Source: Desulfurispirillum indicum S5
Lineage (GTDB): Bacteria > Chrysiogenota > Chrysiogenetes > Chrysiogenales > Chrysiogenaceae
Length of the DNA: 64,000 nucleotides
NCBI RefSeq assembly: GCF_000177635.2
Contig: NC_014836.1
Location: 1,934,001-1,998,000 of the forward strand
Reading direction: 5' to 3'
Under the pieces are notes generated by a model, which did not search any database, was not told the origin of the DNA, and saw nothing but the letters and a program-made list of their open reading frames with translations. A program made the position numbers and the translations under genes. Shown piece by piece: positions 597 to 28,263 of the stretch (its first letter is position 1; every line of letters begins with the position of its first letter).

Positions 597-878
597 TTAT
601 GCGTTATCAACGCGCTCGCGCAGTTCTTTTCCAGGTTTAAAGTAGGGAACTCTTTTGGAGGGAACGCTGACTTTGTCACCAGTCTTGGGGTTTCTTCCTT
701 CACGTGGTCCGCGCTCACGGGTCTTGAAACTTCCAAAACCGCGCAGTTCAACCTTATCGCCCTCCTCAAGGGCGTCAATAATACACTCGAAAAGACCGTT
801 GACGACCGCCTCTGCCTGCTTCTTATTGACCGAGTCAGTTTTTTCACAAATACGTTCTACAAGATCAGCCTTAGTCAT
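597..878 (-). CDS. HU/IHF-family nucleoid DNA-binding protein
   Basis: A protein of 93 residues, the usual size for HU. It has the helical N-terminal dimerisation part (MTKADLVERI), the conserved GFGSFKTRERG turn before the DNA-binding arm, the arm GRNPKTGDKVSVPSKRVPYF and the short C-terminal helix PGKELRERV. HU binds and bends DNA non-specifically as a dimer and compacts the nucleoid. Two ATG codons are adjacent. The ribosome-binding site AAGGAGG ends one base before the first (881), so the second (878) is better spaced and matches the family start MTKADL. The gene stands alone, with a terminator just downstream. HU versus an IHF subunit cannot be settled from sequence, but the proline-tipped arm and lack of extensions favour HU. 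Confidence 0.93.
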   Translation of the reverse strand: MTKADLVERICEKTDSVNKKQAEAVVNGLFECIIDALEEGDKVELRGFGSFKTRERGPREGRNPKTGDKVSVPSKRVPYFKPGKELRERVDNA

Positions 879-962
879 CATTCCTCCTTAAATATATACT
901 CGACAGGCTAAATACTGAAATGGCAACGCATTAACTTATTCATCGCTTGCCAGAACACAGGA

Positions 963-991
963 TAGTTACCATACTCCCCATACCATGTCAA
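963..991 (-). promoter_or_regulatory. Possible sigma-70 promoter of the HU gene
   Basis: On the minus strand a perfect TTGACA (991-986) is followed after 17 bases by TAACTA (968-963), a weak -10 element. The implied 5' UTR is about 75 nt. The -35 is convincing and the -10 is not. Confidence 0.4.
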
Positions 992-1050
992 GGCTTACAA
1001 ATTCTTTTCCTAAAAGGAATTGCTGCACAAACGGTTCTAGAAAACCATAC

Positions 1051-1061
1051 GTCAAAGTGAC
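1051..1061. promoter_or_regulatory. NorR-type enhancer box 1 (GTCA-N3-TGAC)
   Basis: GTCAAAGTGAC is a perfect inverted repeat matching the GTCA-N3-TGAC consensus known for the nitric-oxide-responsive, sigma-54-dependent activator NorR. It lies about 180 bp upstream of the predicted sigma-54 start site and 40 bp, nearly four helical turns, from box 2. Both boxes are followed by the same GCACCT. The protein that binds is inferred; no norR gene is in the window. Confidence 0.55.
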
Positions 1062-1090
1062 GCACCTTAACGCCGCCTCCAAACAAGCAT

Positions 1091-1101
1091 GTCATTATGA
1101 C
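1091..1101. promoter_or_regulatory. NorR-type enhancer box 2 (GTCA-N3-TGAC)
   Basis: GTCATTATGAC is a second perfect GTCA-N3-TGAC palindrome, exactly 40 bp from box 1 and sharing TGACGCACCT with it. Paired, helically phased sites upstream of a -24/-12 promoter are the typical arrangement of a bacterial enhancer-binding protein target. Confidence 0.55.
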
Positions 1102-1213
1102 GCACCTCTCGTTTTGTTATATTTTCGCAGCAGCACGCCAATTTGACACTTATGGCCCGCATAATTTCCTCCTGAAGTTCAGCAAACGCTGCACAGACGG
1201 CAAAACAGGAAAC

Positions 1214-1229
1214 TGGCACATAATATGCA
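1214..1229 (+). promoter_or_regulatory. Sigma-54 (-24/-12) promoter
   Basis: TGGCACATAATATGCA carries the invariant GG and GC dinucleotides separated by 10 bases, with the full TGGCAC -24 element. The -12 element is ATGCA rather than TTGCA. The predicted start is near base 1240. The promoter sits downstream of the two palindromic boxes and upstream of a terminator with no evident gene between, which suggests it drives a small RNA. Confidence 0.6.
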
Positions 1230-1239
1230 AACAGAATTA

Positions 1240-1340
1240 CGCACCTGGAGAGTTTCCTCTCCTCCTTTCCTCTCCGGGTATGGGATGTTCGTGGAAAAAT
1301 ATTTACGGAAGAAGAGCCTGCACCATGCAGGCTCTTTTTT
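1240..1340 (+). ncRNA. Candidate sigma-54-dependent small RNA, about 100 nt
   Basis: From the predicted start at about 1240 to the T-run at 1340 there is no credible gene. The RNA would begin with a small hairpin (GGAGAG pairing with CTCTCC, about 1247-1262) and continue with a very pyrimidine-rich stretch (CTCCTCCTTTCCTCTCC) that could pair with Shine-Dalgarno sequences. It would end in a perfect 9-bp terminator stem, AGAGCCTGC/GCAGGCTCT, plus six T. Size, promoter class and architecture resemble Qrr-like regulatory RNAs, but there is no recognisable sequence relationship. The start site and the existence of the RNA are predictions. Confidence 0.5.
1313..1340 (+). terminator. Rho-independent terminator
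   Basis: Stem AGAGCCTGC (1313-1321) and GCAGGCTCT (1327-1335), a five-base loop and a T-run to 1340. It lies upstream of the degQ promoter, so it must end a separate upstream transcript. Confidence 0.85.
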
Positions 1341-1353
1341 CGTTTCAGGGTGC

Positions 1354-1381
1354 TTTACACCTCGTCCATGATAGTTATAAT
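1354..1381 (+). promoter_or_regulatory. Sigma-70 promoter of degQ
   Basis: TTTACA (1354-1359), a 16-base spacer and a perfect TATAAT (1376-1381), giving a start near 1388 and a leader of about 33 nt before the degQ ATG. Confidence 0.7.
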
Positions 1382-1420: not shown

Positions 1421-2812
1421 ATGAACATATACCGTCTGCTTACTGGTATTCTGCTCAGCACGCTGGCGATCCTGCTCCTCTTTGCCCCCGTGGGCGCCCA
1501 GCAGTTTCCTGACCTCACCCAACTGGTAAAAAAGGTTGAACCCTCTGTGGTGAACGTCTCCACCAGCAAGCAAGTGGAAGTTGGCCAACGCGAGCTGCCA
1601 TTGCCTGAGGAATTCTTCAACCGTTTCTTTGGCGATGAGTTTCGCCGCTTCTTCGGCGACCCGGGGCACCCGAATGGCCAGCAGCGTCGTTCCAGCAGTC
1701 TGGGCTCTGGCTTTATCGTGTCCAGTGATGGTTACATTGTAACCAACAACCATGTGGTGGAAGGTGCCGACGAAATCACGATTATCCTCAGCGATGAGCG
1801 GGAGTTCAAAGCGGAGGTGGTGGGAACCGACGCCACCTACGACTTGGCCCTGCTCAAGATCAACGCCAGTAATCTTCCCGCCCTGCCCCTGGGGAATTCC
1901 GACACCATCGAAGTGGGACAGTGGGTCTTTGCGGTGGGGAATCCCTTCGGCCTCAGCGGAACGGTCACTGTCGGTGTCATCAGCGCCAAGGATCGCTACA
2001 TCGGCCAGTCCGTCTTTGACAGCTTCCTGCAGACCGATGCCTCCATTAACCCCGGCAACAGCGGTGGCCCGCTGCTGAACCTCAAGGGCGAGGTCATCGG
2101 CATCAATACCGCCATTGTCTCCAGTGGCCAGGGCCTTGGCTTTGCCATCCCCATCAATACCCTCAAGTCATCCTATGAACAGCTCAAGGAGAAGGGTCGC
2201 GTGTCGCGAGGTTGGCTCGGAGTATCCCTGCAGCGCCTGACCCCTGAGCTGGCACGCTCCATGGGTGCGGGAGCCGAGACCACCGGAGTGCTTGTCACTT
2301 CCGTTGAGCCGGATCAGCCCGCCCAGCGTGGGGGGCTGCGCGAAGGCGATATCATCACTTCCTTTGATAACCAGCGAATTGATCGCTACCAGGACATCTT
2401 CCGTTTTGTTGCGCGCGCAACTCCCGGCAGTACAGTCCCCATGGAAATCCTTCGTGAAGGCCGCCGGCAGACACTGCGCGTTACCCTTGGAGAAAGGCCC
2501 GACGAGCGCAGGGCGCAGGTGCGACCACGGCAGGCGGAACCTGCCCCATCTGCCGCCTCCTGGCAGTTCCAGGGAATTCACTTTGAGATGCGTGACAACC
2601 GCGTCGTGGTACAGCAGGTGGAAGCGGGCTCCAAAGCCTATGAGGCGGGAGTTCGCCGTGATATGGTTATCCTGCGCGCCAACAATGTGGTGGTGAGCGA
2701 CCTGGCGACACTGGAAAAGGCTATCAAGGAGCGCTCCCGCAACGGCTTCGTGAATCTGCTGGTTCAGCACCAGGGCGCGAACCGCTTTATTCCATTTCAG
2801 ATTCAGCAATAA
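1421..2812 (+). CDS. degQ: Periplasmic serine protease DegP/DegQ (HtrA family) with two PDZ domains
   Basis: A 463-residue envelope protease and chaperone that degrades misfolded periplasmic proteins. It has a signal peptide (residues 1-26, cleaved near GAQQ) and a trypsin-like domain with His111 (TNNHVVEG), Asp141 (YDLALLKI) and Ser214 (GNSGGPLLN). PDZ1 lies around residues 265-360, with the Do-family start SRGWLGVSLQRL, and PDZ2 around 380-463. The start at 1421 follows GGAGG and gives a clean signal peptide, whereas an upstream in-frame extension would run through the terminator and promoter. Length and two PDZ domains fit DegP/DegQ rather than DegS. hldD begins 30 nt downstream, so the two are probably co-transcribed, linking envelope quality control with LPS core synthesis. 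Confidence 0.94.
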   Translation: MNIYRLLTGILLSTLAILLLFAPVGAQQFPDLTQLVKKVEPSVVNVSTSKQVEVGQRELPLPEEFFNRFFGDEFRRFFGDPGHPNGQQRRSSSLGSGFIVSSDGYIVTNNHVVEGADEITIILSDEREFKAEVVGTDATYDLALLKINASNLPALPLGNSDTIEVGQWVFAVGNPFGLSGTVTVGVISAKDRYIGQSVFDSFLQTDASINPGNSGGPLLNLKGEVIGINTAIVSSGQGLGFAIPINTLKSSYEQLKEKGRVSRGWLGVSLQRLTPELARSMGAGAETTGVLVTSVEPDQPAQRGGLREGDIITSFDNQRIDRYQDIFRFVARATPGSTVPMEILREGRRQTLRVTLGERPDERRAQVRPRQAEPAPSAASWQFQGIHFEMRDNRVVVQQVEAGSKAYEAGVRRDMVILRANNVVVSDLATLEKAIKERSRNGFVNLLVQHQGANRFIPFQIQQ

Positions 2813-27345: not shown

Positions 27346-28263
27346 CTTGTCCATAAATAATTATTGACCATTATGATAGTTTGCTATAGAATGATTCAGT
27401 GAGAGATCATTCATGGCGGTGATTTATGTCTAAAGTGCAATCATGGGAAGTCTCAGATGCTTTCTGGCAAAGAGTTGAGCCTTTGCTGCCAATCCAGCAA
27501 AGAGATCCTGACAAGACCTACAAACGCAAGCCTGGTGGCGGACGGAAGCGACTTGACCCCAGAATGGCGTTTTCCGGCATTGTCTATGTGCTGCGCACCG
27601 GTTGCCAGTGGAAAGCCATACCCAAGGAGCAGTTTGGTTGCGCCAGTGCCGTGCACAAGTACTTCATTGAGTGGAGTAAGGCCGGTGTATTCGAAGCTAT
27701 TTGGCGTCAAGGGCTGGCTGAGTATGACGAGATGGAGGGAATTGCCTGGGAGTGGCAAAGCATAGATGGCGGAATGTACAAAGCACCAATGGCTCTTGAA
27801 ACCGTAGGGAAGAACCCGACGGATCGGGGAAAAAACGGGAGCAAGCGTCATGTCCTGGTGGACGGTCGTGGCGTCCCGTTGTCCATCGTCGTAACCGGAG
27901 CGAACCGGCATGATGTGAGCCAGCTTGAAGCTGTTCTTGATGGCGTAGTCTTCGAGAAGCCTGCAGAGCAGGAGCAGCATCTTTGCGCAGATTGTGGCTA
28001 CAAGGGAAAGCAGGCGCTCAGCAGCATTCTTCAGCGCGGATACATACCCCATGTAAAGCAGCGAAAAGAAGAGATCGAGGACAAGAAGCGTGACCCATCA
28101 AAGAAGGCGAGGCGCTGGATAGTGGAAGCATCTATTTCCTGGTTCAACCGTTTCAGGAAGATTCATGTGCGCTTTGAGAAGCTTGAGGTCACTCACTACG
28201 GGTTGACGTGTCTTGCGGCAGCCATAATCACATACAGGAAAATCGGCGTAATTTATGGATAAG
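27346..28263 (+). mobile_element. IS5-family-type insertion sequence, 918 bp
   Basis: Ends are imperfect inverted repeats CTTGTCCATAAAT (27346-27358) and ATTTATGGATAAG (28251-28263), with one mismatch. One transposase gene fills the element, and its stop codon overlaps the right repeat. The IS interrupts the TonB-receptor gene. Joining the sequence on either side restores that gene's frame. No target duplication longer than about 2 bp can be called. The intact ends and intact transposase suggest a recent insertion. Confidence 0.88.
27426..28262 (+). CDS. IS5-type DDE transposase
   Basis: A 278-residue single-ORF transposase. The N-terminal DUF4096-type region (SDAFWQRVEPLLP, GGGRKRLDPRMAFSGIVYVL, TGCQWKAIPKE) and the DDE core are both complete: Asp in SIDGGMYKA, Asp in HVLVDGRGVPLSIVVTGANRHD, and Glu in RRWIVEASISWFNRFRKI. 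It catalyses cut-and-paste movement of the element. No frameshift is present, and expression would be from the left end, where a weak TATAG-like sequence lies. Confidence 0.92.
   Translation: MSKVQSWEVSDAFWQRVEPLLPIQQRDPDKTYKRKPGGGRKRLDPRMAFSGIVYVLRTGCQWKAIPKEQFGCASAVHKYFIEWSKAGVFEAIWRQGLAEYDEMEGIAWEWQSIDGGMYKAPMALETVGKNPTDRGKNGSKRHVLVDGRGVPLSIVVTGANRHDVSQLEAVLDGVVFEKPAEQEQHLCADCGYKGKQALSSILQRGYIPHVKQRKEEIEDKKRDPSKKARRWIVEASISWFNRFRKIHVRFEKLEVTHYGLTCLAAAIITYRKIGVIYG

Follow-up and report, generated by a model that had tools for sequence, protein, structure and literature searches.

In Desulfurispirillum indicum S5, the intergenic region that separates ihfB from degQ is best read as an unannotated, conserved small RNA gene of the sigma-54 type, and on the evidence of its sequence we consider the presence of the RNA gene itself very probable. 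D. indicum is strictly anaerobic and can use selenate, arsenate, nitrate, and nitrite for respiration (PMC3368425). The window analysed here is a stretch of 64,000 nucleotides from its genome (G000; 2,928,377 bases in one contig), which was compared with two other Chrysiogenaceae genomes, G001 and G002, the latter from a sister genus (three genomes in all). The locus has the following features, given in window coordinates:

597–881, minus strand: ihfB (integration host factor subunit beta), the divergent left neighbour (NCBIfam NF001222, 125.9 bits, cut-off 115)
962–991, minus strand: probable sigma-70 promoter of ihfB, TTGACA-18-AACTAT, the same in G002 (stretch L008)
1051–1061, plus strand: predicted activator box 1, GTCAAAGTGAC; in G002 GTCAAAGTGGC
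1091–1101, plus strand: predicted activator box 2, GTCATTATGAC; in G002 GTCAAAATGGC
1137–1147, plus strand: predicted activator box 3, imperfect, GCCAATTTGAC; in G002 perfect, GTCAATTTGAC
1214–1229, plus strand: −24/−12 (sigma-54) promoter, TGGCACATAATATGCA; in G002 TGGCATGCAGTGTGCA
1239–1340, plus strand: predicted small RNA of about 102 nt, its start placed from the promoter to within a few bases (fold z −5.03; G002 counterpart at 1290–1390 of L008)
1243–1279, plus strand: hairpin 1 of the predicted fold, a 10-pair stem with a 17-nt pyrimidine loop
1259–1268, plus strand: CTCCTCCTTT, segment of the hairpin 1 loop, identical in G002 and anti-Shine-Dalgarno-like; proposed seed
1290–1307, plus strand: hairpin 2 of the predicted fold, weak, with an A/U-rich loop
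1308–1340, plus strand: terminator hairpin and U run, GAGCCTGCA-CCA-TGCAGGCTC-TTTTTT, perfect
1354–1381, plus strand: sigma-70 promoter of degQ, TTTACA-16-TATAAT, an 11/12 match, 3′ of the terminator
1421–2812, plus strand: degQ (Do-family serine endopeptidase), the right neighbour (TIGR02037, 467 bits, cut-off 416)

A chance open frame (1097–2812) traverses the unit and enters degQ, which has its own start and Shine-Dalgarno sequence at 1421; how far this frame stays open differs in G002. Elsewhere in the window, a frame resembling an IS5-type transposase (27426–28262) lies between two large minus-strand frames.

Boxes 1 and 2 are the two perfect GTCA-N3-TGAC palindromes, 40 bp apart from start to start, on which the initial annotation had based its proposal; it had overlooked the third box, imperfect in D. 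indicum and perfect in G002. Since boxes 1 and 2 read GTCA-N3-TGAC-GCA in D. indicum and GTCA-N3-TGGC-GCA in G002, the conserved form of the predicted box is GTCA-N3-TGRC with a GCA extension, not a strict palindrome. The −24/−12 promoter that had also been proposed holds up well, with the ten-base interval between GG and GC expected for such elements and with a counterpart in G002, so that both genomes have the arrangement expected of a sigma-54 small RNA gene, namely a correctly spaced −24/−12 element with three boxes upstream. Among 20,000 dinucleotide shuffles of positions 900–1420, at least one perfect box appeared in 106 and two perfect boxes in none, while a promoter match of the same type appeared in 115 and a promoter together with a box in none. 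Close pairs of boxes occur in the D. indicum genome only at this locus and at one further place, and the other genome-wide matches to the box-plus-promoter pattern resemble coding sequence by eye. No IHF site with at most one mismatch was found between the boxes and the promoter.

The stretch of about 100 nt that follows the promoter had been described as gene-free and closed by a perfect terminator, which agrees with our finding, in both genomes, of a short structured non-coding unit ending in a perfect intrinsic terminator, as expected of a small RNA gene. The D. indicum and G002 RNAs share the same predicted three-hairpin fold, with z-scores of −5.03 and −5.40, respectively, and no shuffle folded equally well in either case. 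The 3′ end of 16S rRNA reads ...CACCUCCUUU..., and for this reason the hairpin 1 loop CUCCUCCUUU resembles, and may imitate, the anti-Shine-Dalgarno tail of the ribosome. This gives substance to the earlier suggestion that the pyrimidine-rich centre of the RNA is suited to ribosome-binding sites: as expected of an anti-Shine-Dalgarno-loop RNA, CUCCUCCUUU is predicted to be unpaired and is kept while the stem varies, in a comparison of two genomes only. A search of Rfam 15 gave no family above its gathering threshold (best 21.7 bits against 55).

The initial annotation had made its proposal depend on conservation in relatives, and the boxes, promoter, and terminator are indeed kept together in G002, where the gene order (ihfB, three boxes, promoter, RNA, terminator, degQ) equals that of D. 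indicum. Distances are nearly the same as well, with boxes 39/45 bp apart in G002 versus 40/46 bp in D. indicum, 64 versus 66 bp from box 3 to the promoter, and an RNA of 101 versus 102 nt. In hairpin 1, both bases differ in three of the seven compared pairs, which nevertheless still pair, around an identical loop 10-mer, and the terminator stem has also been altered with its pairing retained. This covariation is suggestive only, because it comes from two sequences and its score was reached by 65 of 500 shuffles. In G001, neither DNA search nor pattern search matched the unit, and degQ lies in a different context. When 50 genomes of the phylum were scanned, the pattern of promoter plus loop turned up only in D. 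indicum and G002 and in one other, repeated sequence, which occurs in three genomes and looks like coding DNA.

The full mechanism that we infer from these elements, sigma-54-dependent transcription of a small RNA that pairs with messages and represses them by blocking their ribosome-binding sites, is one in which we have moderate confidence. The unit would be a free-standing gene for a trans-acting RNA of about 100 nt, in which a sigma-54 activator other than a NorR ortholog would bind the three GTCA-N3-TGRC-type boxes, approximately 65–165 bp upstream of the −24/−12 element, and open the promoter on some signal. The transcript would fold into its three hairpins and stop at the terminator before degQ, and hairpin 1 would display CUCCUCCUUU for pairing with the purine-rich ribosome-binding sites of target messages, the translation of which would thus be blocked. 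Hfq, which is encoded in the D. indicum genome (91 bits), would probably assist this pairing. In the target prediction against Shine-Dalgarno regions that had been recommended, the ribosome-binding site of ihfB, AAGGAGGA, is predicted to pair with the loop at −14.3 kcal/mol in D. indicum and −14.2 kcal/mol in G002, a value that is not exceptional among the 51 start sites of the window, several of which pair as well or better. For nrfA the corresponding energies are about −13 and −12 kcal/mol. Overall, predicted target energies do not exceed those of ordinary ribosome-binding sites, and a target search with AAAGGAGGAG retrieved no orthologous start-site pair in D. indicum and G002.

Such energies bear on a variant of this proposal in which the same RNA mainly binds a protein or the ribosome, mimicking the 16S tail or acting as a decoy for some pyrimidine-binding protein, instead of pairing with specific messages. 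The loop is nearly a generic anti-Shine-Dalgarno sequence and many ribosome-binding sites therefore pair with it about equally well, as this variant would predict, but RNAs already known to have loops or C-rich regions of this sort do act by pairing with messages (PMC10746234, PMC4409812), and we regard it as improbable. The position of the unit directly upstream of degQ in both D. indicum and G002 would also suit a regulated degQ leader, with sigma-54 transcription toward degQ, the terminator acting as an attenuator, and read-through set by hairpin 1 or by a bound factor. Our search for a good sigma-70 promoter of degQ in G002 found none, so read-through from the unit into degQ may occur there. 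However, D. indicum has a strong independent degQ promoter after the terminator, which the initial annotation had correctly recognized, its hairpins lie side by side in a predicted fold without a competing antiterminator, and the degQ of G001 manages without the unit; a leader function is thus unlikely. It is even harder to see in the conserved stretch a small protein gene, or merely a promoter region that has diverged and carries a terminator, a highly improbable reading to which short ATG frames within the RNA in both genomes (MFVEKY... in D. indicum, MSVKKY... in G002) lend some appeal. These frames lack a Shine-Dalgarno sequence at the usual spacing and run through the terminator, many substitutions alter their amino acids, and a fold z-score below −5 in both genomes argues against a coding sequence or a promoter remnant.

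Control by NorR and induction by nitric oxide, as originally proposed for this unit, had several points in their favour. The E. coli NorR core, GTCA-N3-TGAC, is identical to the boxes, which literally match norV sites, and GTCAATTTGAC, the third box in G002, also occurs as a site at norV; the E. coli norVW region (PMC2941729) likewise has three GTCA-N3-TGAC-type sites upstream of a −24/−12 promoter, and D. indicum, which respires nitrate and nitrite (PMC3368425), possesses nrfA and hcp. Nevertheless, the norV sites, read for comparison, are 21/24 bp apart and not 40/46 bp, and the norVW promoter drives a protein operon beside norR, whereas D. indicum has no NorR. For NorR, a protein of GAF-AAA+-HTH architecture, the equivalog model NF003451 has a cut-off of 476 bits, which nothing encoded in the three Chrysiogenaceae genomes exceeds (best in D. 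indicum 356 bits); E. coli NorR scores 821 bits on this model, one of 14 control genomes was over the cut-off, and the nearest match in D. indicum is a NifA. The nrfA and hcp loci of D. indicum have no GTCA-N3-TGRC-type boxes upstream, and the restriction of close box pairs to this locus and one further place means that no nitric oxide regulon is visible. With no NorR equivalog and no boxes at nrfA or hcp, the NorR and nitric oxide label should be dropped for the present, a nitric-oxide-induced RNA under NorR being improbable here.

The activator of the small RNA gene would have to be sought among the 14 sigma-54 activators with a full AAA+ domain encoded by D. indicum, 11 of which have reciprocal best hits in G002. 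Three of them (L034, L036, and L042) are common to D. indicum and G002 and have no ortholog in G001, which is the distribution of the unit itself and a weak pointer to the activator. The helix-turn-helix most like that of NorR belongs to the NtrX-like L037, a protein present in all three genomes. No link to the boxes was found for L034, L036, L042, or L037, and the stretches read near the 14 activator genes contain no box cluster at their promoters. The only perfect box near these genes is a single one beyond L045 that seems to be part of another binding site. There, downstream of another activator gene, the intergenic region at 2560–2900 of L045 (G000 near 1355400) contains GTCATTTTGAC, a number of TTGAC/GTCAA arms, and TGGCATGGATATTGC, all ahead of a possible sensor gene. 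At the G001 ortholog the corresponding place carries GGGTCAATATAGGTTGACCC, which hints that this activator binds a different kind of site. In all three genomes, the gene immediately upstream of nrfA (nitrite reductase) encodes a sigma-54 activator of the response-regulator type (G000:C1:2412242-2414774 in D. indicum, L158 and L043), and just before the D. indicum nrfA there are neither GTCA-N3-TGRC boxes nor a clear −24/−12 element. A histidine kinase and sigma-54 regulator pair was also seen by eye near a NarG-type molybdoenzyme gene (L145 1–8409, G000 near 2702000–2710400); the pair is kept in G002, where the NarG-type enzyme is absent from the stretch read.

Qrr RNAs (LuxO) are small RNAs whose sigma-54 promoters have activator sites upstream. 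The same arrangement is described for GlmY (QseF/GlrR) in PMC6075780. Both GlmY and Qrr are unrelated to the D. indicum RNA in sequence and fold and have other activators and sites, and GlmY acts as a decoy (PMC7073468) and not through an anti-Shine-Dalgarno loop, unlike this RNA. The silencing of messages by RNAs with anti-Shine-Dalgarno loops is established for alpha-r14/NfeR1 (PMC10746234) of Rhizobiales, part of the nitrogen stress response, which resembles the D. indicum RNA in having an ultraconserved anti-Shine-Dalgarno loop motif and diverging stems (PMC3927594, PMC10746234) and silences by pairing at ribosome-binding sites, as proposed here. It differs by its three or more CCUCCUCCC loops instead of one CUCCUCCUUU loop, by its activation by LsrB and repression by NtrC instead of sigma-54 activation, and by its occurrence in Alphaproteobacteria; the D. 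indicum RNA does not have the three hairpins, each with CCUCCUCCC, that define the alpha-r14 family. RoxS/RsaE (PMC4409812) also has C-rich regions able to pair with Shine-Dalgarno sequences and a nitric oxide response, the role first envisaged for this unit, but it belongs to Firmicutes, is controlled by ResDE/SrrAB and not by a sigma-54 activator, has several C-rich regions, and shows no sequence relation that we could see. Our literature search on NorR-controlled or sigma-54-dependent small RNAs returned known cases of other kinds and none like this unit; nearest in mode of action are the anti-Shine-Dalgarno-loop RNAs of Rhizobiales and RoxS/RsaE.

If true, this reading would provide a small RNA for a deep-branching group in which our literature search found none described, and it would join sigma-54 control and an anti-Shine-Dalgarno loop, a combination found in no paper in these searches. 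The presence of NorR-type boxes is not in itself a sign of a nitric oxide response, since they are conserved here where NorR is absent. Tentatively, and with less than even confidence, we may be looking at a new Chrysiogenaceae family of small RNAs, to our knowledge the first to be put forward there, in which a sigma-54 activator of unassigned class, acting on NorR-like sites without any NorR, would drive an RNA that mimics the ribosomal tail in anaerobic arsenate and selenate respirers and possibly acts back on ihfB. The identity of the activator would reveal the condition to which these respirers of arsenate and selenate respond with translational control.
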